Source of the DNA: an uncultured Sulfitobacter sp.
Lineage (GTDB): Bacteria; Pseudomonadota; Alphaproteobacteria; Rhodobacterales; Rhodobacteraceae
Length of the DNA: 64,000 nucleotides
Direction of reading: 5' to 3'
Assembly: GCF_947500075.1 (NCBI RefSeq)
Contig: NZ_CANMQS010000002.1
Coordinates: 124,001 to 188,000, forward strand
Below the pieces are notes generated by a model. The model had not been told where the DNA came from. It made no database searches and saw only the letters and a program-made list of their open reading frames with translations. Made by a program: the position numbers and the translations under genes. Of this stretch, positions 8,313 to 63,881 are shown one piece after another. Each line of letters begins with the position of its first letter. The stretch's first letter is position 1.

Positions 8313-11233
8313 GGATTGCGGGCAAGGGGCTGGTCGATCGGGCGCAGCCGGTCACGTTTACCTTTGACGGTGTCCCGGTGAAGGGATTTGCAGGCGACAC
8401 CGTCGCTTCCGCCCTGCTGGCCAGGGGGCAGGTGCTGATGGGGCGGTCGTTCAAGTACCACCGCCCGCGCGGGCCCCTGACCGCGGGCAGTGAGGAACCC
8501 AATGCGCTGATCACGGTGGGCAAGGGGGCCGCTCAGGTCCCCAATGTGCGCGCGACCCAGCAGGAGATCTACGACGGGCTGGTCGCCCGGTCGCAGAACG
8601 CATGGCCGTCGCTCAATTTTGACGTGATGGCGGTGAACGATCTGGCCGCGCCGTTTCTGGGGGCGGGCTTCTATTACAAGACCTTCATGTGGCCCAGGGC
8701 GTTCTGGGAATGGGTTTATGAGCCGGTGATCCGCAAGGCCGCCGGACTGGGCGCGCTGTCAGGCAAGAGCAACACGCAGACCTATGACAAGGCCTTCGCC
8801 TTTTGCGATGTGCTGGTGGTGGGCGCAGGGCCTGCCGGGTTGATGGCGGCCTGGGTGGCGGCGCAATCCGGGGTCGAGGTGATCCTTGCCGATGAGGACG
8901 CGCTGCCGGGTGGTCGCCTCATGGCAGAGACAGAAGCAGTGGGCCATCAGGCGGGCCACGTCTGGGCCGCGGCACTGGCAGAGAAGCTGCGCGCGATGGA
9001 GAACGTGCGCATCATGCCGCGCACCACGGTGACCGGGGCCTATGACGGCAATGTCTATGGCGCATTGGAGCGGCTGGATGCGCAGGCCCCGTCCGGCGCG
9101 CCGGTCGAATGCTTCTGGCGCATCACTGCGCGGCAATGCGTCCTGGCCGCTGGCGCGCTGGAGCGGCCCATCGCCTTTCAGAACAACGACCGCCCCGGCA
9201 TCATGCTGGCCGGCGCGCTGCGCGCCTACCTCAACCGCTGGGGTGTCTGCCCCGGCAAGCATGTCACGATCTTCGGCAACAACGATGACGCGCACCGCAC
9301 CGCGCGCGATCTGGCGGCGGCAGGCGTGCATATCGCTGCCCTGATCGACAGCCGCGAAGGGGTGACCTTCGACGGTGCGGATTTCCCGGTCTACGCGGGT
9401 GCGCAGGTCTGCAATGCCAGCGGCCGCACCGCGTTGGAGAGCATCACGGTGCGCACTGCCGACGGGGAGGACGCCATTCAGACCGATTGTCTGGCGATCT
9501 CCGGCGGGTGGAACCCGACGGTGCATCTGACCTGTCACATGAACGGGCGGCCCACATGGAATGCGGATCTGCAAACCTTCGTGCCCACCCCCGGCGCGGT
9601 GCCCGATCTGATCCCGGCGGGCGCGTGCAATGGCGTGTTTTCAACAAAGGGCTGTCTGGAAGACGGCCTGCGCGCGGGCAAAGAGGCGGTGAAAGCACTG
9701 GGCAAACGCGCGGCTGCGGTGGAGGTGCCACAGGCCGACGATGCAGCATACGCGCTGGACCCTCTCTGGGCCGTGGCGGGCAAGGGCCGCGCATGGCTGG
9801 ATTTTCAGAACGATGTGACCGTGAAGGACGTCAAACAGGCCGCAGTTGAGAACTTCCAATCCGTGGAGCATATGAAGCGCTACACCACCCAAGGCATGGC
9901 CACCGATCAGGGCAAGTCCTCCAACATGGCCGCGCTGGCGATTCTGGCCGATGCCACGGGCCGCGCCATCCCTGAAACCGGCACCACCACCTATCGGCCC
10001 CCGTTTGTCCCTGTGTCGATTGCGGCGATGGGCGCAGGCGGGCAGGGCGAAGGTTTCGCCCCGCAGCGGTTCATGACCTCGCATAGACAATCCGTGGCGA
10101 TGGGCGCGCCGATGATCGAAGCGGGGCTGTGGTACAGGCCCAGCTACTTCCCCAAACCGGGAGAAAGCACCTGGCGGCAATCCTGCGACCGGGAGATCGG
10201 CTATGTCCGGCAGGCGGTGGGCATCTGCGATGTCTCGACCCTGGGCAAGATCGACATCCAGGGGCCGGATGCGGCGCAGCTGCTGGATTTTGTCTATACC
10301 AACATGTTCTCCACACTGAAGCTGGGCCGCGTCCGCTATGGTCTGATGCTGCGCGAAGACGGGCATGTCATGGATGACGGCACCTGCGCGCGGCTGGGCG
10401 ATCAGCACTATCTGATGACCACCACCACCGCCGCCGCCGGGCAGGTGATGCGGCATCTGGAGTTTGTCTGTCAGGTGCTGCACCCCGACTGGCAGGTGGC
10501 CTTTACCTCCGTCACCGAACACTGGGCGCAGTACGCCGTGGCAGGGCCAAAGGCGCGGGACCTGCTCAATGATGTGCTGGACCCGCCCATCGACAACGAC
10601 AGCTGGCCGTTCATGTCCTGTGGGGAGACCCGCGTGGCGGGGGTCACGGGGCGGCTCTTCCGCATCTCTTTCTCCGGGGAGCAGGGATACGAAATCGCCG
10701 TACCCGCGCGCTACGGTGCGAGCCTCTTCGATCTGCTGGTGAAGAAGGCCGAGGCGCTGGGCGGCGGGGCCTACGGGATGGAAGCGCTGAATGTGCTGCG
10801 GATCGAGAAAGGCTTCATCACCCATGCCGAAATCCACGGGCGCGTGACGGCCTTTGACATCGGCATGGGCCGGATGGTCTCGGCCAGGAAGGACTGCATC
10901 GGCAAGACCATGGCCGCCCGCCCCGGTCTGGTGGAAGAGACGCGCGAACAACTGGTCGGGCTGAAACCCGTGGCGGGGGGCACGCTGACCGCCGGTGCGC
11001 ATCTCTATGACGCGGGGGCCGACGCGACGCGGGTGAACAACCAGGGCTATGTCACCTCCGTCGGCTATTCGCCGGCGCTGGGCTGCGACATCGGGCTGGG
11101 TTTTGTCAAAGGCGGGCCTGCGCGGATGGGCGAGGTGATCCGGCTGGTTGATGGTCTGCGCAAGGTGGAAACAGCGGTGGAAATCTGCGCCCCCGTCTTT
11201 GTGGATCCAGAAGGGGAGCGGTTGCGTGGCTGA
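8309..11233 (+). CDS. soxA: Sarcosine oxidase, alpha subunit
   Basis: A 974-residue large subunit. The N-terminal part resembles a 2Fe-2S-like fold without a full cysteine set. It is followed by an NAD-binding domain (LVVGAGPAGL at about 169-178) and a C-terminal aminomethyltransferase (GcvT-like) half from about residue 580, which handles the folate-bound one-carbon unit. The ATG at 8309 overlaps the soxD stop by one base and has clear coding sequence after it; a longer upstream frame lies inside soxD and is rejected. Together with SoxB it channels the iminium intermediate to tetrahydrofolate, giving 5,10-methylene-THF. Confidence 0.96.
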   Translation: MRIAGKGLVDRAQPVTFTFDGVPVKGFAGDTVASALLARGQVLMGRSFKYHRPRGPLTAGSEEPNALITVGKGAAQVPNVRATQQEIYDGLVARSQNAWPSLNFDVMAVNDLAAPFLGAGFYYKTFMWPRAFWEWVYEPVIRKAAGLGALSGKSNTQTYDKAFAFCDVLVVGAGPAGLMAAWVAAQSGVEVILADEDALPGGRLMAETEAVGHQAGHVWAAALAEKLRAMENVRIMPRTTVTGAYDGNVYGALERLDAQAPSGAPVECFWRITARQCVLAAGALERPIAFQNNDRPGIMLAGALRAYLNRWGVCPGKHVTIFGNNDDAHRTARDLAAAGVHIAALIDSREGVTFDGADFPVYAGAQVCNASGRTALESITVRTADGEDAIQTDCLAISGGWNPTVHLTCHMNGRPTWNADLQTFVPTPGAVPDLIPAGACNGVFSTKGCLEDGLRAGKEAVKALGKRAAAVEVPQADDAAYALDPLWAVAGKGRAWLDFQNDVTVKDVKQAAVENFQSVEHMKRYTTQGMATDQGKSSNMAALAILADATGRAIPETGTTTYRPPFVPVSIAAMGAGGQGEGFAPQRFMTSHRQSVAMGAPMIEAGLWYRPSYFPKPGESTWRQSCDREIGYVRQAVGICDVSTLGKIDIQGPDAAQLLDFVYTNMFSTLKLGRVRYGLMLREDGHVMDDGTCARLGDQHYLMTTTTAAAGQVMRHLEFVCQVLHPDWQVAFTSVTEHWAQYAVAGPKARDLLNDVLDPPIDNDSWPFMSCGETRVAGVTGRLFRISFSGEQGYEIAVPARYGASLFDLLVKKAEALGGGAYGMEALNVLRIEKGFITHAEIHGRVTAFDIGMGRMVSARKDCIGKTMAARPGLVEETREQLVGLKPVAGGTLTAGAHLYDAGADATRVNNQGYVTSVGYSPALGCDIGLGFVKGGPARMGEVIRLVDGLRKVETAVEICAPVFVDPEGERLRG

Positions 11234-53507: not shown

Positions 53508-54800
53508 TTAGCTCGCCGCTTTGCTGAGCGCCTGATCCAGATCCGCGATCAGGTCATCCGCGTCCTCGGTCCCGATGGAGATCCGCACCACGCTTGGCCC
53601 CGCACCCGCCGCTTCCTGCTGCTCTGCCGACAACTGCCGGTGGGTGGTGGAGGCGGAGTGGATGATCAGCGAGCGGGTATCACCGAGGTTGGCCACATGG
53701 CTGAAAATCTCCAGCGCGTTGACCAGTTTGATACAGGCGTCATAGCCGCCTTTGACCGCCACTGTGAACAGCGCGCCCGCACCCTTGGGGCAGACAGTTT
53801 TCACGCGCTCAAAGTAGGGGGAGGATTCCAGCCCGGCATAGGTGACATGGTCAATCCGGTCGTCGTCCTCCAGCCATTTGGCCACTTTGCGGGCGTTCTC
53901 TACATGCCGCTCCATCCGCAGCGACAGGGTTTCGGTCCCCATCAGCGTGTAATGTGCCGCCTGCGGGTTCATCGTCATGCCCAGATCGCGCAGCCCGATG
54001 GCGATGCCGTGGAAGGTGAAAGCCAGATTGCCGAAGGTCTCATGGAACTTCAGGCCGTGATAGGCAGGCTCGGGCTGGCTGAGGGAGGGGAACTTGTCAT
54101 TTGCGGACCAATCAAAGGTGCCGCTGTCCACCACGCATCCGCCGGTGACGGTGCCGTTGCCGGTGAGGTATTTGGTGGTGGAATGCACCACGAGCGTCGC
54201 GCCATGTTCAATCGGGCGGCACAGGTACGGCGTGGCGGAGGTGTTGTCGATGATCAGCGGCACGCCCGCTTCATCCGCGACATCCGCCACCGCGCGCACA
54301 TCCATGATATAGCCGCCGGGGTTGGCGATGGCTTCGCCAAAGATCGCGCGGGTGTTTTCGTCCACCGCCGCACGCACCGCGTCCAGATCGTCAAAGTCGA
54401 CGAATTTGCATTCCCAGCCGAAGCGTTTGATCGTCTGGCTGAACTGCGTGACCGTGCCGCCATATAGGCGGGTGGAGGCGATAATGTTCTTGCCCGGTCC
54501 CATCAGCGGGAAGAGCGCCATGATCTGTGCCGCGTGCCCGGAGGAGCAGCAGACCGCGCCAACACCGCCCTCAAGCGTGGCAATCCGCTCCTGAAGCACA
54601 GCAACCGTCGGGTTGGTCAGGCGCGAGTAGATGTAGCCGACTTCCTGCAAGTTGAAGAGTGCCGCAGCATGATCGGCATCGCGGAACACATAAGCCGTGG
54701 TCTGGTAGATCGGCGTCTGCCGCGCGCCGGTGGCCGGGTCAGGACGGGCGCCTGCGTGGATTTGCAGGGTGTCAAAGCCGTATGTCGGGCCGTCGGTCAT
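53508..54800 (-). CDS. metY: O-acetylhomoserine aminocarboxypropyltransferase (MetY type)
   Basis: A 430-residue PLP enzyme of the Cys/Met metabolism family. PLP-binding Lys210 lies in HSTTKYLTGNG; YIYSRLTNPTV at residues 52-62 and SSGHAAQIMAL at about 86-96 are typical. It makes homocysteine from O-acetylhomoserine and sulfide. Length and the IIDNTSATPYLCRPIEHGA segment favour MetY over cystathionine synthase. An AAGGAG ribosome site precedes the ATG. I looked for a SAM-II riboswitch upstream and did not find one; a CGGTATGG direct repeat is present instead. Confidence 0.94.
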   Translation of the reverse strand: MTDGPTYGFDTLQIHAGARPDPATGARQTPIYQTTAYVFRDADHAAALFNLQEVGYIYSRLTNPTVAVLQERIATLEGGVGAVCCSSGHAAQIMALFPLMGPGKNIIASTRLYGGTVTQFSQTIKRFGWECKFVDFDDLDAVRAAVDENTRAIFGEAIANPGGYIMDVRAVADVADEAGVPLIIDNTSATPYLCRPIEHGATLVVHSTTKYLTGNGTVTGGCVVDSGTFDWSANDKFPSLSQPEPAYHGLKFHETFGNLAFTFHGIAIGLRDLGMTMNPQAAHYTLMGTETLSLRMERHVENARKVAKWLEDDDRIDHVTYAGLESSPYFERVKTVCPKGAGALFTVAVKGGYDACIKLVNALEIFSHVANLGDTRSLIIHSASTTHRQLSAEQQEAAGAGPSVVRISIGTEDADDLIADLDQALSKAAS

Positions 54801-54822
54801 GGTGAAATCTCCTTAATTCTAT

Positions 54823-54845
54823 CGGTATGGCGGTTTGCGGTATGG
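54823..54845. promoter_or_regulatory. CGGTATGG direct repeat in the metY leader
   Basis: CGGTATGG occurs at 54823-54830 and 54838-54845, start-to-start spacing 15 bp, 23-45 bp before the metY start. It could be a tandem regulator site; no binder can be named. Confidence 0.4.
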
Positions 54846-54952
54846 TTAGGGGATGCCGCGTGGGGAGACAAGCGCGATGGGGGATTTGAGGACGTGGTCC
54901 TTGGAATGAGGTGTGGGGTGGGAGAGTGTTCTGCGGCTCGGGGTGCCAAAAA

Positions 54953-55861
54953 CTAGACCTCTTTGATCTGTGCGCTCTGACGCTCTGCCTCCAGCAAGGT
55001 CGATACGATCTGTAGCGGGATGTTCAGCTCTTCGGATGCCTTCTTGATGGCGTCCATGATCGCCTCATCGCTGGCCATCAATCCACCGATCCGGTAAAGA
55101 TCACTGCTGTGGTCCAGCGCAATGTGCATTTCTTCGCCTGTACTGGTCGCTGAAAACAAGCGCACATAGCCCTCAATCTGCTCTTCAAGGTCGGTCAGGA
55201 TATCAATCACAGCGGTCAGTGCGGGGTCTTTCTGTGCCATCCCGGCTTTGGACAGCCAAACCCCGTATGCAACGTCGTTTTGCCCCCTGATCTTCTGCGA
55301 TTCCACAAGATCAGACGTATCGATCCTGCTGAACCATCGGTCGGTTTCATGGGCTTGCGCGAGAAAGAAGGCCGGCAGCGGTGCGACGTTCTCAAACCGC
55401 AGGACGAACCCTTGGAAGACTGTTCTTGACCGCTTGCCGCCTGTCTTGATCTTGACCTCTGCCATCTCAAACTTGCGACCGCAGACCTTTCCACTCAGGT
55501 GATCTTCGGCTTTTTGCACAGATGCGCGCGGCAAAAGCCGCTGCGGGATCCTGTTCAGGAATGCGGATGCGTTTTGCTGATACTCCAGATCAACTGTCCG
55601 GGCTAAATGCGGCATGACCAACTGTTGCTGCGTGCGCGCCACCCATCTGTTCAGCATCGTCACCCCGCCGAAACCCACCGCGATCCCGAGCGCTGGTATC
55701 CTCAGATCATTGCTGTCGAAGAGTGAGGGAGCAAAAACAGCAAAGACCACTGCACCGATCACCGTTGCCACTGCAATGATCCAGCCGCGTCGGCGCTTTT
55801 CCCGCAGAACAGGAGAGAGCTCTGCCAGCGTTTCGATCAATTCCGGCTCGCGTGCCTGCAT
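54953..55861 (-). CDS. DUF3137-like membrane protein
   Basis: A 302-residue protein with two adjacent hydrophobic segments (WIIAVATVIGAVVFAVFAPS and IPALGIAVGFGGVTML, about residues 27-72), then a soluble domain. Features such as LSGKVCGRKFEMAEVKIKTG and VFQGFVLRFE match the DUF3137 family, whose function is unknown. I start at ATG 55861, six bases after AAAAGGA, rather than the ATG six bases upstream. It is monocistronic on the minus strand. Confidence 0.8.
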   Translation of the reverse strand: MQAREPELIETLAELSPVLREKRRRGWIIAVATVIGAVVFAVFAPSLFDSNDLRIPALGIAVGFGGVTMLNRWVARTQQQLVMPHLARTVDLEYQQNASAFLNRIPQRLLPRASVQKAEDHLSGKVCGRKFEMAEVKIKTGGKRSRTVFQGFVLRFENVAPLPAFFLAQAHETDRWFSRIDTSDLVESQKIRGQNDVAYGVWLSKAGMAQKDPALTAVIDILTDLEEQIEGYVRLFSATSTGEEMHIALDHSSDLYRIGGLMASDEAIMDAIKKASEELNIPLQIVSTLLEAERQSAQIKEV

Positions 55862-55954
55862 GTGCATTCCTTTTGCCTTTGGCCCAAACGTGGTTTCTGC
55901 TCTGATCGGCCCGGATTTTGCGACGGAAGTCGCCGGAAAATGGTCAGGGGGCGC

Positions 55955-56959
55955 CTACCGCATCCAGAACCCATTCGACTTGATCCGGTTCCGAATGGCC
56001 TGCTCCTTGCGCGGCAGGTTGTCCTGATCAAACAGTGCCCGCACCTTCCGACCACGCCCCTGATAGATCATCCGCTTGATCGCATCATACCCCTTCAGCA
56101 CTTTCTTGAGCTTGTTGGGGGCCGTCACCTCTTCCAGCACCTGTACGGCCAGATCGTTTTCGCGGGCATAGAGCAGCGGCAGCAGGCGGTAGTGGCAGGA
56201 CACTGTGCCATCCAGCAGGCCCTCGGGCAGGGTGTCACGGCCGCCACCCAGCGCATGGATCACCAGCGGCAGGGCCACCTGATCCAGCCATGGATCGAAC
56301 GACTGACAACACAGCTCGACAGGGGGATCGTTGCGGATGGCCAGCGCGTATTGCTCAAAGAGCTGTCCAAAGGCATGCGGGCATTTGTAAAAGAAATACC
56401 CTGCGTTGAAATACAGATATCGCCGCCAGTATTCGTCCGGCTGGCTCAGATCGAGGCTGCTTTCAAAGTCCAGGTCGAACTTGTCGTAAAGCGATTTCCA
56501 AAGGCCCGTGTAGCCGGGGCCGTAGATTTGAGGCTCCGGCCATGTGCCTTCCCGGCGCAGCGACGCGGAGGGGCGGTCGAAATCAAAAGGCACGCGGCTC
56601 AGGTCGCACGTGATCAGCGTATCGGTGTCAAAGAAGACAAACGGCTCCCCTTCGGGCAGGGCGCGCAGCATTTCGATTTTGTTGCCATAGGGATAGGCGC
56701 TGCCGAAATGTCTGCTCTCAAACGGGATGATCTCTGCCCCGAAGTCGGCAAGCGCATCGCGCACGTCAGCACTGCGCATGCTGGGGTCCTTGTCCCACTT
56801 GGGTCCGGGTTGCGGTTCCGCGATGATCAGGCGGCCTTTTAAACCGGGGCTTCTTGCCCGCAGCGAAGCGGCAAAGATCAAGGCCTCATAGGCCAGCCGG
56901 CCATGCTGTCCCACAACGACGACGTTGAATGTTTGCGGTGCGCGCGCCTTGCGTGCCAT
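55955..56959 (-). CDS. Glycosyltransferase-like protein with DxD motif
   Basis: A 334-residue protein with a Rossmann-like N-terminus (TFNVVVVGQHGRLAYEALIF) and the motif EPFVFFDTDTLITCD (DTD at about 112-114), the metal/nucleotide-sugar DxD of GT-A glycosyltransferases. Later, RYLYFNAGYFFYKCPHAFG and SFDPWLDQVALPLVI resemble GT8-type enzymes. No signal peptide or membrane span. Donor and acceptor are unknown. It stands alone, 86 bp from the preceding DUF3137-like gene. Confidence 0.75.
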   Translation of the reverse strand: MARKARAPQTFNVVVVGQHGRLAYEALIFAASLRARSPGLKGRLIIAEPQPGPKWDKDPSMRSADVRDALADFGAEIIPFESRHFGSAYPYGNKIEMLRALPEGEPFVFFDTDTLITCDLSRVPFDFDRPSASLRREGTWPEPQIYGPGYTGLWKSLYDKFDLDFESSLDLSQPDEYWRRYLYFNAGYFFYKCPHAFGQLFEQYALAIRNDPPVELCCQSFDPWLDQVALPLVIHALGGGRDTLPEGLLDGTVSCHYRLLPLLYARENDLAVQVLEEVTAPNKLKKVLKGYDAIKRMIYQGRGRKVRALFDQDNLPRKEQAIRNRIKSNGFWMR

Positions 56960-57049
56960 ACTCGATCTGCCTTTGGTCTTTTGCGGCCACTATAGGCGTT
57001 CGATCAGATTGGCAAAAGCGGCATTTGGGCCGTGCGGTGGGGGTGAGAC

Positions 57050-57763
57050 ATGCTGGATATCTTTTTCGCAATGGTGGCAGCGGGCATGAATGGCGCGCAG
57101 AATGATCAGGCTGCGGCCGCACCGGTGGCCGATCCCCCTGCCGCCGTGGCCGCAGAACCGCAGGCCGACAGCAGCGCGACCGTGACAATTGGTGAAGGCA
57201 GCGTCGTGATCGGAGAGAATGTTGTTGTCCAGGGCGCGACCGCCGCGACCCTTGCACCCGCGCCGGCACCCGCCGCGACCCCTGCACCCACCGCGACGCC
57301 CGCGCCAGCCGCTACCGCCGCACCTGCCGCCACTGCCTTACCAGCCGCAACCCCCTTCAACATGGCCGTGGTGCCCGCAGGATTGATGGCCGAAGACCAG
57401 ACCCCCAGCGGCAAATTCACCACCGCGACAGAGATCAAACCGATCCTGAACGCGACCCGTGGCAACTGGGTTGCGGTGCGTGAATATGATGGCAAGGACT
57501 GGCTCTATGTCACGCATCTGTGGAGCTGGCGCTGCGGGCTGGCGGCGATGGCGATATCGGTCAATGATGAGCCGATGCAGAACTGGCCGCTGCCGCCCTG
57601 CCACATGAAGTATACGACCCCCAATGCGATCCTCGAAGACGATGGCATTCCGGCGCTGACCTTGCAGCTGGGTGGGGTGCAGACGATCACCATTCAGGTG
57701 GTCTATGACGATCTGACGATGGACATCGCCCGCTTTGCGCGTGGTGATGTGCTGATCCCCTGA
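57050..57763 (+). CDS. Alanine/proline-rich protein of unknown function
   Basis: A 237-residue protein. After a short hydrophobic N-terminus (MLDIFFAMVAAGMNG) comes an Ala/Pro/Thr-rich linker (about 65-100, APAPAPAATPAPTATPAPAA) preceded by a short strand-rich segment (ATVTIGEGSVVIGENVVVQG) recalling left-handed beta-helix or hexapeptide repeats. The C-terminal domain (about 115-237) is globular, with WLYVTHLWSWRCGLAAMAIS and the pair of cysteines in CGLAAM and PPCHMK. No family recognised. It lies 21 bases before the Rieske oxygenase gene and may be cotranscribed with it. Confidence 0.7.
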   Translation: MLDIFFAMVAAGMNGAQNDQAAAAPVADPPAAVAAEPQADSSATVTIGEGSVVIGENVVVQGATAATLAPAPAPAATPAPTATPAPAATAAPAATALPAATPFNMAVVPAGLMAEDQTPSGKFTTATEIKPILNATRGNWVAVREYDGKDWLYVTHLWSWRCGLAAMAISVNDEPMQNWPLPPCHMKYTTPNAILEDDGIPALTLQLGGVQTITIQVVYDDLTMDIARFARGDVLIP

Positions 57764-57784
57764 TCCTTTCGAAAAGGCCCTGAA

Positions 57785-58825
57785 ATGTTTCTGAAAAACG
57801 CGTGGTATGTCGCGGCATGGGATCACGAGATCACCCGCGATCTGCAACAGGTTGTTGTGCTGGGTGAGAAGATCTGCGTCTTTCGCACCGAAGACGGTGC
57901 GCTGGTGGGGCTTGAGGATGCCTGTCCGCACCGCAAGCTGCCCTTGTCCAGAGGGCGCATCAGGGGCGACACCGTGGAATGCGGCTATCACGGGCTGACC
58001 TTTGACTGTGCCGGGCAATGTGTCTGGGCACCGGGTGCCGGGCGCATCCCGTCAAACGCGCGCGTCCATGCCTATCCAATGCACGAGAAATACGGGTTGG
58101 TATGGATCTGGATGGGCAACCCCGCGCTTGCCGATCCTTCCGAGATCTTTGAGATCGACCACTACGACGATCCCACATGGGGCATCAATCGCGGCGCTGC
58201 GATGGAGCTGGACTGCAATTACCTGCTGATGTGTGACAACCTGCTGGATCCAACCCATGTGGCCTGGGTCCATGAAAGCAGTTTCGGGCAAAGTGCCACG
58301 CGAGACACCCCGCTGCGCGTGACCAAGACCGACGATGGTGTGATCGTGCACCGCTGGATGATGGATGTGGAACCTGCCCCTTTCTACAAGAAAGTGGTGG
58401 CCTTTGAGGGCAATTGTGACCGGCTCCAGCATTACGAGGTGCGCTACCCCTCCCATGCGTTGGTGAAGGCGGTTTTTACGCCTGCGGGGACGGGGGGACC
58501 GGAGGGGCCGCTGCATGAGGACGTGTTCATCATGGACAGCTATAACTTCATGACACCCACCACCGAAGGCACCACGCGGTACTATTGGTTCCAGCTGCGC
58601 AACATCCGGCCTGACGATGCAGCGCTGTCCCAACTGATGACCGACGATGTGCAGCATGCGTTTGAAGAAGACCGCGCCGTGCTGAACGAAGTGCAGGTCG
58701 GCATGCGGGAGAAGACCAGCCCACACATCGATCTGCCCATTGACGGCGGTCAGCTGCGCTTCCGGCGTCAGTTACAGGCGATGATCAATGAGGAACGCGA
58801 GGTTGACCGCCAGATGGCGGAATAG
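57785..58825 (+). CDS. Rieske aromatic ring-hydroxylating oxygenase (VanA-like)
   Basis: A 346-residue oxygenase alpha subunit. The Rieske [2Fe-2S] site is CPH (47-49) and CGYH (66-69). The mononuclear iron site lies in CDNLLDPTHVAWVHE (about 152-166), and the C-terminal Asp ligand is in the RPDDA region. Size and the N-terminus (MFLKNAWYVAAW) resemble VanA-type O-demethylases and related one-component oxygenases, rather than large ring-dihydroxylating enzymes. A reductase partner is not adjacent. The substrate is unknown; vanillate demethylase is one option. Confidence 0.88.
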   Translation: MFLKNAWYVAAWDHEITRDLQQVVVLGEKICVFRTEDGALVGLEDACPHRKLPLSRGRIRGDTVECGYHGLTFDCAGQCVWAPGAGRIPSNARVHAYPMHEKYGLVWIWMGNPALADPSEIFEIDHYDDPTWGINRGAAMELDCNYLLMCDNLLDPTHVAWVHESSFGQSATRDTPLRVTKTDDGVIVHRWMMDVEPAPFYKKVVAFEGNCDRLQHYEVRYPSHALVKAVFTPAGTGGPEGPLHEDVFIMDSYNFMTPTTEGTTRYYWFQLRNIRPDDAALSQLMTDDVQHAFEEDRAVLNEVQVGMREKTSPHIDLPIDGGQLRFRRQLQAMINEEREVDRQMAE

Positions 58826-58917
58826 AGCGTTACGGCAGAGCGCAAGAGGGGCAAAGCCAGCCCCGGCGTGAGGTGGATTGGGATGGCATTTGCATGCCGG
58901 GGGGGCAGCACCCTCAG

Positions 58918-59007
58918 CATCCGACAAGAGCACGATTACGCCACCTTCCCAAGGGATGCGCGAAACGCATGTGTCGACAGCGCAATTGAAGGTGGGGCTA
59001 TCGGATG
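58918..59007. other. Nested three-tier inverted repeat between convergent genes
   Basis: Within a 226 bp gap, CATCCGA pairs with TCGGATG (58918-58924 with 59001-59007), CCACCTT with AAGGTGG (58941-58947 with 58989-58995), and ATGCG with CGCAT around a CGAAA loop (58956-58960 with 58966-58970). The nesting is consistent and symmetrical. It lies at the 3' end of both the Rieske gene and the HExxH gene, so a terminator or processing structure is possible. No T-run follows. Confidence 0.5.
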
Positions 59008-59051
59008 ACGGCGTTTTAGGGGGGTGCAAGGCGACGTTCAGGTCAGACGGC

Positions 59052-60089
59052 TCAGCGTGCAGCGATGGCTCTTGCAGTATCGTTCAGAACGTTCTGGCCC
59101 AGATCCGTCATCTTGGCATGCTCATCAATCACGGCTTTGCAATCGTGATAGGCGGACAGCGAGCGTTGCTGGATAGAGGTGCAATAGGCACCGACCGTGT
59201 CGGTCTCGGCTCCCAGACCCAACGTCGGCAGGGCGGCCAGGACCGCGTCCATCGCCACCGTTTCCCGCGCGGAGACATAGCATGCGTGGTAGATCCCGTC
59301 GATCGGGCGCAGTGTTTCGCGCAGTGGGGACCGGAACCGCTCTGACGGATCGTTGGTCACCAATTCGCCGTCAGAGGCGAGGCCAAACAGGAAGTTATGC
59401 GAATATTCATGCGCGATCCGGGGCAGGTAGTCCCACCAATGATCATGGGCCTGCGCGTTCAGCGCCATCGCACCCCAAAGCGCGAAAGACGAGGCGCCGC
59501 CGAAGCTCAACTTTGCGTCAGGGCCGGGTTTGGCGAAAATGATCTCGGTCGTCAGCGCGGTCAATTCGCCGTAAAAGTCGGGCAGGGCGCGTTCGATGCA
59601 GGTCAGGGCGCGGCCCAGCACCTCTGTGGCATCCTTGAACTCGGCCGCGTCCAGCGGCAGCAGTGCCATGCTGTTTTCCGGCTCCAGATCGAACCAGCGC
59701 AGCAGGCAATCCACATCAACCGCATCGTAGTGTTCTGCACTCAGCGTCTTGATCGCAAGCCCGCTGTTGCCCTGCGCTCCCGCTGTCACGCGATCCGCCA
59801 GACGCTGGGCGCGGGCCATGTATTCCTCTGACGTGGCGCTGTCTGGGTTGTGGTGCACGGCAGAGGCAAGATCAAAGTAGAGCCCGAAATCGGTGGGGCG
59901 CGCCTGCCATGCGTCAAGCGTTGCCGCGTCGATGCTCAGGCACGGGTAGCTTTCCGCCAACCAGCCAAAGCTGGACGTCAGGCGATCCCGGACCGTTTTG
60001 TCCACCGCCTGCGCCGCTTTTGCCGAGGGCAAAAAAAAGTCGCCAGCGCTGCGGGCAGCGCCGACGGTTTGTTGTTCGATATCAGCCAT
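59052..60089 (-). CDS. HExxH-motif protein, probable peptide-modifying enzyme (alpha-ketoglutarate/HExxH type)
   Basis: A 345-residue protein with HEYSH at residues 227-231 (IAHEYSHNFLFGL). About 37 residues later, ETLRPIDGIYHACYVSARE supplies a likely third ligand (His268). The segment SPLRETLRPIDGIYHACYVS matches the conserved R-P-(I/L)-x-G-(I/L)-x-H-x-x-Y stretch I recall from the HExxH family found in peptide natural product clusters, some members of which are alpha-ketoglutarate-dependent peptide beta-hydroxylases. There is no signal peptide. It begins 15 bases after the repeat-peptide gene. A metalloprotease is the alternative reading. The substrate is inferred to be that peptide. Confidence 0.75.
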   Translation of the reverse strand: MADIEQQTVGAARSAGDFFLPSAKAAQAVDKTVRDRLTSSFGWLAESYPCLSIDAATLDAWQARPTDFGLYFDLASAVHHNPDSATSEEYMARAQRLADRVTAGAQGNSGLAIKTLSAEHYDAVDVDCLLRWFDLEPENSMALLPLDAAEFKDATEVLGRALTCIERALPDFYGELTALTTEIIFAKPGPDAKLSFGGASSFALWGAMALNAQAHDHWWDYLPRIAHEYSHNFLFGLASDGELVTNDPSERFRSPLRETLRPIDGIYHACYVSARETVAMDAVLAALPTLGLGAETDTVGAYCTSIQQRSLSAYHDCKAVIDEHAKMTDLGQNVLNDTARAIAAR

Positions 60090-60104
60090 ATCTCTGTGGC
60101 TCTA

Positions 60105-60269
60105 TCAGCCGGGCTTCTGCTCGCCAACTTTTGTCGCAATCGGCAGGAACTTCATCGCACCGTAAGGTGCCAGAATGGAAGCGGTCCCGGTCTTGCCGGT
60201 GTCGCCGACTTTTGTGGCGAGTGGCAGAAATTTCAGTGCGCCATATGGCGCCAAAACAGTATGTTTCAT
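60105..60269 (-). CDS. Small repeat peptide, probable RiPP precursor
   Basis: A 54-residue peptide (start ATG 60269) with AAGGGG nine bases upstream. It contains two copies of LAPYGAxKFLPxATKVG (residues 6-22 and 33-49), separated by DTGKTGTASI and followed by EQKPG. Comparing the 17 aligned codons, 4 are identical, 11 differ only synonymously and 2 give conservative changes (Leu/Met, Leu/Ile). The DNA has drifted while the peptide is held fixed. There is no long leader or signal peptide, and each repeat ends in T-K-V-G then D or E. It sits between the ATP-grasp and HExxH genes. Two in-frame ATGs upstream (60329, 60299) would add 20 or 10 residues but have poor ribosome sites. Confidence 0.8.
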   Translation of the reverse strand: MKHTVLAPYGALKFLPLATKVGDTGKTGTASILAPYGAMKFLPIATKVGEQKPG

Positions 60270-60340
60270 AGCTATTAACCCCTTTTTCAAAAACACCATC
60301 AGCCTACGCGGCCCTTTGGCCTCGATCAACGAAAAACGTG

Positions 60341-62197
60341 TTATGTTGAATTTGGGCGTTCAATTCCGTCGATAATAATCCCAATCAGGGCATCAATACG
60401 GTCTCGTGGCAAGAATTTGTCACGATCCCGAAACGACACGAGAGAATCATTCACCTGCCGGGCGGAGGTGACGTGAAGCATTGGACGCCCCCGTTCGAGC
60501 AGTTCATCGTCCTGCACAACCACAATCAGCGCCCCTGTCTGCGTGTCCGAAAGTGCGGCGGTGATCCGCTCCACCAAGGTGCCCCCGTCCCGGTACCTGA
60601 TCAGGTCTCCATCCGCGCCGAGTGTCTGATCATGCGCCGTCAACACGGCGGCGGCACCCTCTTGTGCCAAGTGCTGCTGATGCAGGCGGGCTTTTTCCAT
60701 TGCGGCGTCATCGCCCACGTAGACATGCACCGGCACGGCCCCTTTTTCCGCACCAAAGAGGGCGTCAACATAAGCCTTCGCGCTGTTGTGCCCGATTTGT
60801 GGCATGGAGTTCACTTCGGTGATGCAGGCCCCCGTCTCAAACCAGGGGCGGCTGGGATCGGTTGAGATCAGATCAAGCCCCATGCTTTCAAGCCGGAACA
60901 TCCGGGAAATGCGTTCGGCCAGCTTGATGTTTTCGGGGTGCACCTTGTCCGTGATGGTTTCATTGTGCCCACCTTCGTCAAGGGTGTTGTTGCGCCGAAG
61001 GTATGCAATCTGATCGGCCGCAGGGATGGCGTGCAGCGCCAGCCCCTGATCTGCCAGACAATCGAACGCCAGATCATCGAGGGGGAAAGGTTTCTCCGCC
61101 TTGTAGGCGACTTTTCTGGCCCGTTTGACCTGCGCCTCTTCGACCAGTTGCGCCACGGTCTTGGTTCCGTCACCGACAACTGCTTTGGGATGGCGGGTAA
61201 AGCCGAAGACGTATCTGTTGCGGAAGGTGACAAGCCGGTGGCAATGACCGGGAATGCGCTGCTCGACCATGACGAAATTGGTGAACTCTCGGGCGGCTTC
61301 AAACGCGACTTTCATGTGATCGTCGTCCATGACGTCCACGCTCACCCCTTTGTTGCCATCCTGGTTTTCCGGCTTGACGACCACCGGATATCCCAGCTGC
61401 GCGGCAAAGGCGCAGGCGTGATCCAGCCGGGTTACCAGTCTCGAATGCGCTGTGGGCACGCCGTTTTGTTGCAGCCACTTGCTGGTGGTCCATTTGTCTT
61501 TTGCAGACCTTGCGCCAATGGCCGCGTCGCCCTGCGTCATGCTGCGTTCCACAAGCACGGCATGGGAACCGGTGCCAAGCTGGTAGACCGATCTGCCGAC
61601 ATGTTCGATCTGAATGCCCCGCTCAAAGGCCGCCTTGAGCAGGTGGATGCAGTTTGGGCCGCTCCCGCATTCCCACCGGATGACATCCACGACATCCTTC
61701 TCCAAGGCGTCTGCCCTGGACCTGACGTCTTCGACCACGTTGGCAGTGGTGGCCAGATCGCGGATCAGGCTGTAGGCGGCACCATAGGCCAGCCGGTAAA
61801 CCCGCGCGGGGATATGTTCCGTCACCGGGATGGTCAGGATGACGGTGGGCGCGCCGCGGGCTTCGGGTTGGGAAAGGGCGACGATCCTCTCCCGATCAAA
61901 GGACGGCAGGCCTGCATCCACAAGAAGCTGTCGGGCCAGGACACACACCGCTTGAATGCACTGCGCCTGCACGGGCGCAAGTGTGACGGAAGGCCGTCTG
62001 CGGGGGGCTGTCATCTCTTCGGGTTCCATCGCCATCATATCGGTCAGGAACTGCCGCATCAGGTCCGGGTTGAACCGTTCCAGCGGTGGCAGATCGAACT
62101 GCGCTGTCCGCCGGAGTTGCCTGCTGCCGTCGGCATAACGGTACAGGACCGTCCCGATCTGGATGTGGTCTTCGATGTCCAAAGTCCGTGTTCCCAT
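60341..62197 (-). CDS. Cyanophycin-synthetase-like ATP-grasp ligase without the Mur-ligase domain
   Basis: A protein of about 618 residues. An N-terminal region (1-200, with ARVYRLAYGAAYSLI) is followed by an ATP-grasp domain at about 235-470: KWTTSKWLQQNGVPTAHSRL, GYPVVVKPENQDGNKGVSVD, GHCHRLVTFRNRYVFGFTRH and EVNSMPQIGHNSAK. These match the ATP-grasp half of cyanophycin synthetase (CphA1). CphA1 has a Mur-ligase-like C-terminal domain of about 350 residues; here only 130 unrelated residues remain. It probably forms amide bonds on a carboxylate of the adjacent peptide. It is the first of three same-strand genes. The start is uncertain (ATG 62197 or GTG 62203). Confidence 0.82.
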   Translation of the reverse strand: MGTRTLDIEDHIQIGTVLYRYADGSRQLRRTAQFDLPPLERFNPDLMRQFLTDMMAMEPEEMTAPRRRPSVTLAPVQAQCIQAVCVLARQLLVDAGLPSFDRERIVALSQPEARGAPTVILTIPVTEHIPARVYRLAYGAAYSLIRDLATTANVVEDVRSRADALEKDVVDVIRWECGSGPNCIHLLKAAFERGIQIEHVGRSVYQLGTGSHAVLVERSMTQGDAAIGARSAKDKWTTSKWLQQNGVPTAHSRLVTRLDHACAFAAQLGYPVVVKPENQDGNKGVSVDVMDDDHMKVAFEAAREFTNFVMVEQRIPGHCHRLVTFRNRYVFGFTRHPKAVVGDGTKTVAQLVEEAQVKRARKVAYKAEKPFPLDDLAFDCLADQGLALHAIPAADQIAYLRRNNTLDEGGHNETITDKVHPENIKLAERISRMFRLESMGLDLISTDPSRPWFETGACITEVNSMPQIGHNSAKAYVDALFGAEKGAVPVHVYVGDDAAMEKARLHQQHLAQEGAAAVLTAHDQTLGADGDLIRYRDGGTLVERITAALSDTQTGALIVVVQDDELLERGRPMLHVTSARQVNDSLVSFRDRDKFLPRDRIDALIGIIIDGIERPNST

Positions 62198-62324
62198 TCC
62201 CACCCGCGTGAAGCCTTAGCCTAACGGGATGTTGGCCTTGCGTCTGCCCTCAAGTTGGGAATCGCTCTGCGCACCCACGACAGGCGGGCAGGGGGCGTGG
62301 GGTGAAAGCCGGAAGTGGGGCCGA

Positions 62325-62939
62325 TCAGGACTGCACGGTGAAATCTGCCGCGCGCCCTTCGTTCAGGACGACATCTGCGTTACGCATATCATTCCCCTCG
62401 GCCCGTGCGGTGGCGTCGGCGGGGGACAGGCCGTGATTGCGCCAGCGTTCCACAAGCCGCGCGTGCAGCGTGGCGCGCGGCACATCAAGGCGGACGGTCA
62501 GATCGAACAAGCCGTCAAGTTCCGACCAAGGGGCGCGGTTCAGCAGCAGGTAATTGCCTTCGATCAGCAAAACCCGCGTGTCCGCACTGACCGCAGCCCC
62601 ATCTGGCACCGTCTTGTCTGCCTCCCGGTCAAAGGTGGGATAGGTGATTGTGGTGTCTGACCTCAGACGACGCACCAGTGCTGCGAAAGCCGCAGCATCA
62701 AAGGTCTCAGGCGCGCCTTTGCGTTCCAGCAGGCCAAGAGGGATCAGTTCGGCATTATCAAGGTGAAACCCGTCCATCGGTACAACCGCCGCTGGAAGCC
62801 GCAGGCCCTGCGCAAGCGCTTCCGCGATGGTGGATTTGCCAGAGCCGGGAGGACCCGCAATCCCGATCAGGATCCGCGACTTTCCTTCGGCACAGCGTTC
62901 GATTTCCGAAAGGAGCTGGGCTTGCGTGACAAGGGGCAT
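62325..62939 (-). CDS. Uridine-kinase-like P-loop kinase
   Basis: A 204-residue P-loop kinase with Walker A GPPGSGKST (about residues 29-37), VPMDGFHLDNAEL near 52 and ALLIEGNYLLL-type VLLIEGNYLLLN near 121. It belongs to the uridine kinase/phosphoribulokinase-like group that often accompanies sugar uptake genes (FrcK-like). Its ATG immediately follows the fructokinase stop (zero-base gap), so the two are one unit. The substrate is uncertain: a sugar or nucleoside. Confidence 0.85.
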   Translation of the reverse strand: MPLVTQAQLLSEIERCAEGKSRILIGIAGPPGSGKSTIAEALAQGLRLPAAVVPMDGFHLDNAELIPLGLLERKGAPETFDAAAFAALVRRLRSDTTITYPTFDREADKTVPDGAAVSADTRVLLIEGNYLLLNRAPWSELDGLFDLTVRLDVPRATLHARLVERWRNHGLSPADATARAEGNDMRNADVVLNEGRAADFTVQS

Positions 62940-63881
62940 CTAGGTGTCGCTCCCGTTTAACTCATGTGCCCAGGGCGGATTGGCCCCGGCGCGGGACACG
63001 GTGATGGCAGCGACCTGCGCCCCAAGGGTCAGGGCATCGTGCATCTGCGCGGCAGTGATGTCAGCCCAGCGGTCTTTGCGCAGCCACCCCGCCTGCGACA
63101 GCGACGCCAGAACACCTGCGTTAAAGGTGTCGCCGGCCCCGACGGTATCGACGATCTGCGCGGGACGTGCGGGCACATGAACCTCTGTACCATTGCGCAG
63201 ATAAGCAGTTGCCCCTTGCGCGCCCTGCGTCAGGATGACGGTCCGCGCACCAAGGTCCAGCAACGCCCGCGATTTTTGCGGATGCGTGTCAGCGCCGGGA
63301 ACGATCCAGTCGAGGTCTTCGTCAGAGATTTTCACAATGTCCGCCTGCGCGATCATCCCCTCCAGCCGATCCCGGTAGCGGGTCGCATCAGCGATGAACC
63401 CCGGTCGGATGTTGGGATCCAGCATGACCAGACGGTCGGACCCTTCCTTTGCCAGCAAAGCCGCATAGGCGTCTGCACCGGGCTCACAAGCCAGGCTGAT
63501 CCCGCCGAAATAGAGCGCGGATACCTCTGGCTGAAGGGCCGGCAGGTCGGATGGGGTCAGCATGCGACCGGCAGAATTCTCATCCATGAAGGTATAGCGC
63601 GCCTGCCCGTCGGTCAGTTGCACAAAGGCAAGGGTCGTCGGCCGCGCGCTGTAGATGACATGCGCGGTATCCACCCCTGATTGCGTCAGGGCGGTGGTCA
63701 GTTGCTGGCCGAACATGTCCTGCGAAAGCCCGCTGAGAAGCCCGGCCGTTGCCCCCAGACGCCCCAGCGCGATGGCCGTGTTGAAGACCGCACCGCCACA
63801 ATGCGGCACAAAGCCCGAAGCGCCCGAAACCGTTGGTTCGGGGATCATGTCGATCAGCGCTTCGCCGCAGCATAGGATCAT
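62940..63881 (-). CDS. PfkB-family carbohydrate kinase, probable fructokinase
   Basis: A 313-residue sugar kinase. The N-terminus MILCCGEALIDMIPE and the first signature (CGGAVFNTAIALGRLGA, about 28-44) are present, as is the second PfkB signature (DTVGAGDTFNAGVLASL, about 244-260) with the catalytic Asp in GAGD. Specificity for fructose is inferred from similarity to bacterial FrkA and from the upstream gene fragment. It phosphorylates the sugar with ATP in the cytoplasm. It is followed directly by the P-loop kinase gene. Confidence 0.9.
   Translation of the reverse strand: MILCCGEALIDMIPEPTVSGASGFVPHCGGAVFNTAIALGRLGATAGLLSGLSQDMFGQQLTTALTQSGVDTAHVIYSARPTTLAFVQLTDGQARYTFMDENSAGRMLTPSDLPALQPEVSALYFGGISLACEPGADAYAALLAKEGSDRLVMLDPNIRPGFIADATRYRDRLEGMIAQADIVKISDEDLDWIVPGADTHPQKSRALLDLGARTVILTQGAQGATAYLRNGTEVHVPARPAQIVDTVGAGDTFNAGVLASLSQAGWLRKDRWADITAAQMHDALTLGAQVAAITVSRAGANPPWAHELNGSDT

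Follow-up and report, generated by a model that had tools for sequence, protein, structure and literature searches.

The 64,000-nucleotide stretch of an uncultured Sulfitobacter sp. (assembly GCF_947500075.1, contig NZ_CANMQS010000002.1, positions 124,001 to 188,000; hereafter the window) carries three open, co-directional minus-strand genes, with intergenic gaps of 71 and 15 bases as initially annotated, that encode a cyanophycin synthetase (CphA)-like ATP-grasp ligase, a 54-residue peptide with two internal repeats, and a protein with an HExxH motif. The question raised by this trio is whether the peptide serves as the substrate of both enzymes or lies between unrelated neighbors. The trio is confirmed as real, selected and recurrent, and is proposed (probability of about 0.6) to form a small system of the ribosomally synthesized and post-translationally modified peptide (RiPP) type, in which the peptide core is hydroxylated and a peptide carboxylate, most likely that of the C-terminus, is activated and coupled to an amine. 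The genes and their principal features are as follows.

60341..62203, minus strand: CphA-like ATP-grasp ligase, 620 aa; GTG start, with an in-frame ATG at 62197
60279..60284, minus strand: AAGGGG, ribosome-binding-site-like, 9 nt upstream of the peptide ATG (sequence read directly)
60105..60269, minus strand: putative precursor peptide, 54 aa, with two 18-residue repeats and a Lys-x-Gly core; ATG start (repeat selection; K-x-G enrichment)
60201..60254, minus strand: repeat 1 of the peptide, LAPYGALKFLPLATKVGD (direct repeat comparison)
60120..60173, minus strand: repeat 2 of the peptide, LAPYGAMKFLPIATKVGE (direct repeat comparison)
59052..60089, minus strand: predicted alpha-ketoglutarate (aKG)-HExxH-type peptide hydroxylase, 345 aa (TIGR04267, 67.2 bits; match to ChlH, 8s5f)
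59397..59411, minus strand: HEYSH motif (H227, E228 and H231; the three residues are invariant in 16 HExxH proteins)
59283..59330, minus strand: SPLRETLRPIDGIYHA signature, residues 254-269, common to ChlH (family profile and ChlH comparison)

The coordinates agree with the initial annotation apart from the ligase start, which had been placed at the in-frame ATG (62197), the frame being open from the GTG at 62203.

The repeat peptide

The peptide repeats (consensus LAPYGA[LM]KFLP[LI]ATKVG[DE]) are identical at 15 of 18 residues, and the pair of 17-residue repeats first described is real at the protein level only; no repeat is detected at the DNA level by a repeat finder applied to 60000-60400. 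Between the repeats 15 of 54 bases differ, in 14 codons, of which 11 are synonymous and three conservative (L/M, L/I and D/E). When 15 base changes are placed at random, three or fewer residue changes occur in 0 of 20,000 trials, with a mean of 9.1. Because the codon changes are mostly synonymous and no random placement is as conservative, the peptide is a selected product with purifying selection between its repeats. The DNA repeat is too diverged for the finder and the protein is kept; the duplication is therefore an old one, after which the protein sequence was preserved.

The window peptide is enriched in Lys-x-Gly (K-x-G) triplets compared to shuffled sequences (four, p = 0.0036; three, p = 0.012, with one repeat left out), with no significant enrichment for the looser K.{1,2}G pattern (p = 0.053). 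A scan of 233 loci (window included) detects the LAPYGAxKFLPxATKVG block, initially put forward as a conserved element, in the window and its own copies alone; the feature common to related precursors is the Lys-x-Gly core, not this 17-residue block.

Recurrence of the trio

Co-occurrence and synteny, the check proposed in the initial annotation, bear the trio out: the ligase, peptide and HExxH genes are together at four loci, those of the window and of three further genomes. These include: (i) L025 (on the same contig as L067) of the Rhodobacteraceae metagenome-assembled genome (MAG) DT_100, with a ligase, a convergent HExxH gene and a peptide gene 83 bp upstream of the latter, (ii) L066 of the Sphingorhabdus sp. 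EL138 MAG, arranged as L025 with the peptide gene 23 bp upstream of an HExxH gene whose product shares 53% identity with the L025 protein across 309 residues, and (iii) L209 of a genome (G1019) from another family in the phylum, with the ligase at 10562-8754, the peptide (MKKNVVKLDVSKLYGFNLSSDKKQVKVSTAASPKLGIKLVKPQ) at 8706-8575 and the HExxH gene at 8525-7518, which is the gene order of the window. The HExxH proteins of L066, L025 and L209 score 99.1, 102.6 and 74.9 bits, respectively, against TIGR04267. The L025, L066 and L209 peptides show the leader sequence L-D-x-S-K-L-[LY]-G-F, which is missing from the window peptide. The looser K.{1,2}G pattern is enriched in L025 (p = 0.015) and L066 (p = 0.026), the strict K-x-G pattern is significant in neither, and the L209 peptide is enriched in neither form. 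Among the 80 loci kept of 300 relatives in the genome scan, only L066 and L067 match the HExxH queries at E <= 1e-3. An ABC transporter gene of L066 (6201-8018; PF00664, PF00005), which lies about 1.9 kb ahead of the ligase gene and is separated from it by other genes, may encode an exporter.

The L209 trio lies, together with a 107-aa open reading frame (ORF) of no Pfam family, within an interval of 3,989 bp that is bounded by a dihydrouridine synthase gene (PF01207) and by a second gene, which starts at 10807. In two of six relatives fetched (L228 and L230) the distance between the flanking genes, measured from ORF to ORF, is 362 and 328 bp, respectively, and the site is unoccupied; in the other four, the right-hand gene is not found in the stretch fetched. 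None of the six has a match to HExxH or to the ligase, and the L209 HExxH gene is present in 1 of 59 genomes of its genus, itself alone (the genus sample for G195, the Rhodobacteraceae MAG of L025, is one genome only). The presence of the segment against an empty site in relatives points to an L209 trio gained as a block. No near match to the L209 operon is found among plasmids.

The HExxH protein

The window HExxH protein passes the NCBIfam model TIGR04267, 'aKG-HExxH-type peptide beta-hydroxylase' (cut-off, 40 bits), in agreement with the family first assigned to it, and contains the HExxH and SPxR..RP..G..HA residues of that family. In a 16-row profile (A4), H227, E228, H231, S254-P-L-R257, R261, P262, G265 and H268 are invariant. 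The same signature is visible in ChlH (PDB 8s5f), which matches the family profile at E = 2.5e-12. The protein is probably an iron- and aKG-dependent peptide hydroxylase, as predicted from sequence. A structure model from a three-row alignment was too poor to be used (predicted local distance difference test score, 52.7).

With the window protein as query, matches are found in 2/58 genus and 12/295 family genomes, and with profile A4 in 16/390 order and 11/385 class genomes, in samples that overlap. Plasmids provide four records with distant relatives; none of 16 pattern matches on viral contigs is a relative of the family.

A precursor family upstream of HExxH genes

Many HExxH genes are directly preceded by a small ORF that combines a leader (LDxSKLLGF, for example) with a Lys-x-Gly-rich core (e.g., MTKIDRSKLLGFKLDSAVNEGAKMGAKDGVKMGNKVGLKAGAKVGLKMGDKAVAPTRRA of G566, 1 bp ahead of the HExxH gene). 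When defined as a leader, [KRD][LM][LFMI]G[FYL], followed by at least two K.{1,2}G units, on the same strand and within 1,200 bp upstream, such an ORF is found at 17 of 32 HExxH loci, whereas 76 control loci yield none, either for 658 genes longer than 250 aa or among 11,310 small ORFs. As the pattern is derived from the same peptides, the result shows an association and is no blind test. The precursors are identical at two of the 17 loci (G420 and G354), L028 with its five tandem peptides is counted as one locus, and L209, found later, is outside the 32; weak partial class matches (G945, G885, G628 and G987) and duplicates of known loci were dropped beforehand. No Pfam or NCBIfam model matches the window peptide or any of eight peptide sequences tested. 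The KLLGF-leader, Lys-x-Gly-core peptides are a so far unannotated precursor family.

The 15 loci without a pattern ORF include the window and G054, both with two-repeat peptides that miss the leader pattern. Eight of the 15 (G054 included) have an ORF with an AMP-binding motif after the HExxH gene, G121c likewise has an AMP-binding gene, and five others are G339, G915, G908, G792 and G734. Of the eight AMP-binding-motif neighbors, the four tested (L016, L023, L026 and L157) passed Pfam PF00501, as did L029.

Three loci illustrate the range of gene arrangements. L028 (8233-9336) has five tandem precursor genes, with KLLGF/RLLGF leaders and short K-x-G cores, ahead of one HExxH gene; its genome (G121) has three HExxH matches. 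L016 (3494-7109; G054, of the genus of the window) encodes an HExxH protein, an AMP-binding ligase, a carrier protein, a convergent thioesterase-like protein (26.2 bits, just below the Pfam cut-off) and a peptide in which SKLL.L.GSEAARS.KVG occurs twice, which suggests that precursors of this kind can be paired with a different second module. L027 (4767-8506) has, in a row, a peptide with LGRLFSKRG twice, an HExxH protein and an 841-aa AMP-binding/carrier/thioesterase fusion.

The CphA-like ligase

The window ligase passes the Pfam cut-offs of the ATP-grasp models RimK, CPSase_L_D2 and Dala_Dala_lig_C. Its initial description as cyanophycin-synthetase-like stands insofar as it aligns to the synthetase models (residues 116-516 of an 871-residue model); the scores are far below the cut-offs of PRK14016 (219.8 versus 877 bits) and TIGR02068 (208.5 versus 850 bits). 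Residues K220, K261, R309, R323, D431 and E450 of TeCphA1 correspond to K237, K277, R323, R337, D444 and E463 of the window ligase, and these six G-domain residues for ATP/Mg binding and carboxylate activation are invariant in the 18 rows of alignment A5. By contrast, H267, E215, N394, S396, G456, R458 and the M-domain P-loop K499 of TeCphA1 are lost. The G-domain loop His267 is replaced by Gly283; the aspartate-recognition residues N394, S396 and R458 align to T407, D409 and a gap, a placement that rests on one pairwise alignment through loops; and, in the M-domain P-loop for Arg addition, K499 aligns to A501 and GTNGKTT is absent. Judged from these alignments, the ligase keeps the carboxylate-activating residues and has lost the aspartate-recognition and Arg-adding residues of cyanophycin synthetase.

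The window, L066 and L025 ligases form a clade (100/97) within a nine-row clade (100/99) that is apart from cyanophycin synthetases. Graspetide synthetase models are found neither among all 8 (L066) and 14 (L209) ligase families at E <= 1e-5 nor, for the window ligase, among the best 25 of 46 families. A leader-only scan near five sister ligases and five further ligases reveals no convincing precursor. CphA-like proteins are found in 131 plasmid records, none covering 80% of the ligase query.

Relatives of the trio ligases occur in other settings. L060 (8339-11647) and L061 (7258-10566) encode 1102-aa fusions of an AMP-binding ligase to a CphA-like ATP-grasp domain that are sisters of the trio ligases, with neither an HExxH gene nor a precursor in the stretches read. 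In L208 (8613-11267; G1025), a sister ligase adjoins a PF13640 2-oxoglutarate (2OG)-Fe(II) oxygenase with no precursor recognized, and another oxygenase family may have replaced HExxH here. In L069 (8576-12909; a Campylobacterota MAG), a sister ligase is followed by histidine-kinase-like and response-regulator genes; L068, likewise of a Campylobacterota MAG, is alike by resemblance. The Rhodobacteraceae MAG G195 (L025, L063 and L064) has several different CphA-like ligases, with four matches among those listed.

Proposed mechanism and alternatives

A precursor gene beside modifying enzymes, recurring across lineages, is a mark of RiPP systems and is found here at four trio loci and at 17/32 HExxH loci. 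In the proposed pathway, the 54-residue peptide would be the precursor and the substrate of both enzymes. The HExxH enzyme would hydroxylate the Lys-x-Gly core at one or several positions, with Lys the best candidate. The truncated CphA-like ligase would use ATP to phosphorylate a peptide carboxylate, most likely the C-terminal one, and couple it to an amine other than aspartate; this amine may come from a Lys side chain within the peptide itself, which would yield a ring, or from a free amino acid or other free amine, which would yield a C-terminal extension. All four trio precursors share the C-terminal carboxylate. The last 30 residues of each hold a single D or E, at differing places, and no acidic position is common to the four cores; thus, ligation at the D/E after each KVG, as initially suggested, does not hold as a general chemistry. 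What does stand of that first view, a RiPP-like trio with the peptide as substrate of both enzymes, is backed by the three further genomes, the empty site and the selection on the peptide.

Several findings weigh against this proposal. Only four trio loci are found, the window peptide misses the leader pattern of the precursor family, and, of ten proteins tested around the window trio (53508-63881), none is assigned above cut-off to a family of proteases or transporters. In the genus, 2/58 genomes have the HExxH gene, the second copy adjoining an AMP-binding ligase, and the loss of the aspartate-recognition residues depends on the single alignment noted above. The trio HExxH proteins are not one clade: L025 and L066 are together, L209 is separate, and the window protein is a long branch grouped weakly with the AMP-ligase-associated type (93/86). 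Grouping the window, L025 and L066 proteins as a single clade is borderline rejected (p-AU, the approximately unbiased test, 0.049), and grouping the window and L209 proteins is not rejected (p-AU 0.19); four divergent rows were left out of this last comparison and the duplicate-like row G354 out of another. Given this scatter, either the pairing has more than one origin or the window copy has evolved fast. The L209 ligase is likewise outside the clade of the other trio ligases and groups with five sister ligases (99/95) that have no HExxH neighbor or precursor in the stretches read (L068 is truncated by a contig end just before the ligase). Enzyme homologs without a peptide, which the initial annotation had named as evidence against the system, are thus present in both families, as these sister ligases and as HExxH genes beside AMP-binding ligases without a recognized precursor; the claim is therefore limited to the trio-bearing loci and is not overturned there.

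The peptide may instead be the nucleophile, with the ligase attaching a free amino acid or other acid to Lys, or to a hydroxyl made by the HExxH enzyme, and so acylating the Lys-x-Gly units; the AMP-ligase/carrier/thioesterase modules next to related HExxH genes would then reach the same end in a different way. Such modules do adjoin related HExxH genes, twice with a repeat peptide (L016 and L027), two sister ligases (L060 and L061) are fused to an AMP-binding domain, and Lys is second only to Gly in the cores (12.3% of 957 residues). This reading is nonetheless unlikely, as in CphA1, according to the available part of PMC9427784, the carboxylate comes from the peptide and the amine from the free amino acid, and the ligase keeps R323, the residue that holds the peptide carboxylate. 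Somewhat less probable still is a variant of the proposed pathway in which the ribosomal peptide is an encoded primer, to which the ligase would add one or many non-ribosomal residues at the C-terminus after hydroxylation by the HExxH enzyme; if true, the product would be a hybrid of ribosomal peptide and enzyme-made polymer, formed without tRNA or a carrier protein.

A lactam from Lys to the Asp/Glu three residues on, with the ring hydroxylated, would make the product corallotide-like: in the part of PMC13097080 available, a repeated KxxxD, a graspetide ATP-grasp enzyme and a 2OG oxygenase give a 5-hydroxyisopeptide. The window repeats provide KVGD and KVGE, L025 has KVGD, and the sister ligase of L208 is paired with an oxygenase of PF13640, the Pfam family of CorC. 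However, no acid follows the SKVIG units of L066 or the PKLG unit of L209, and the lack of graspetide synthetase models among the L066 and L209 ligase families adds to making this route improbable. That the three genes are unrelated neighbors, with the ligase forming a dipeptide-like metabolite, the HExxH protein acting as a peptidase and the peptide being a small protein of another function, is the most doubtful reading. Sister ligases do exist without a peptide, HExxH is also the motif of zincin proteases, and, in the text available of PMC12636437, one aKG-HExxH enzyme proteolysed its substrate when the leader was missing. Against it, the three genes are together in four genomes, twice in one order and once as a discrete insertion, the peptide is under selection, and a precursor is upstream at 17/32 HExxH loci.

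Neighborhood of the window trio

One further element is located within the trio.

60041..60066, minus strand: terminator-like hairpin and T8 within the 5' end of the HExxH gene (terminator scan and folding energy)

The hairpin has 11 pairs followed by T8, lies in the first HExxH codons and has a folding energy of -20.3 kcal/mol (z = -3.0), in a region where terminator-like sites show no overall excess (four found, 3.6 expected). It is a candidate attenuator between peptide and enzyme, which may attenuate transcription after the peptide gene. No promoter is found in a scan of the region. Upstream of the trio, at a distance of 121 bp and on the same strand, two genes (62325-63881, minus strand) encode a nucleoside/nucleotide-kinase-like protein and a pfkB sugar kinase. 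Of the ten neighboring proteins tested, three have no match above cut-off. A clean insertion site for the window trio was sought and not obtained: the neighboring Rieske gene is in other contexts in 10/10 relatives, with none of eight other window genes tested adjoining it, and no unoccupied site is shown.

Comparison with known systems

CphA2 has a single G-domain active site, a reduced M domain and a length of about 630 aa. Compared to CphA1 and CphA2 (PDB 7wae, 7ta5 and 8fxi), the window ligase is without the M-domain P-loop lysine and the aspartate-recognition residues, belongs to a separate clade and is located in a peptide operon. No pairing of a cyanophycin-type ligase with an HExxH enzyme, and no KLLGF precursor, is described in the titles and abstracts listed by searches of open-licence literature, in line with the initial annotation, to which no described cluster with this exact trio was known. 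As far as found, the CphA-like ligase would be a ligase type new to RiPPs.

The aKG-HExxH RiPP hydroxylases PflC/PosC (PMC12636437), PesO of nitrilobacillin (PMC13060819) and ChlH (8s5f) are of the same TIGR04267 family as the window protein, with the same HExxH and SPxR-RP-G-HA signature and a neighboring precursor peptide. Unlike these systems, the core here is Lys-x-Gly, the leader in relatives is mostly of the KLLGF type, and the partner is a CphA-like ligase in place of multinuclear non-heme iron-dependent oxidative (MNIO), radical S-adenosylmethionine (SAM) or AS-like enzymes. In the accessible portion of PMC13060819, the residues named as targets are His, Asp, Phe, Gln and Pro; the predicted target here, Lys, is outside this set. 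A precursor family would, in addition, be exposed behind many HExxH genes of the family and class of the window.

Corallotide and the graspetides, to the extent covered by the excerpt of PMC13097080, resemble the trio in having a repeated Lys-containing precursor, an ATP-grasp ligase and an iron/2OG oxygenase, and differ in the ATP-grasp branch, in the oxygenase family and in that the four trio precursors are without a general K...D/E pair. By analogy, corallotide is a precedent for an ATP-grasp enzyme and a 2OG oxygenase acting on a Lys-containing repeat, with unrelated enzymes. Peptide aminoacyl-tRNA ligases (PEARLs) extend a ribosomal peptide by an amino acid at its C-terminus, as the window ligase would do; in the portion of PMC10979984 available, PEARLs use ATP and tRNA, whereas no tRNA is expected for an ATP-grasp ligase. 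If the proposed pathway is correct, a CphA-type ligase lineage joins the graspetide ATP-grasp enzymes and the PEARLs in the modification of ribosomal peptides.

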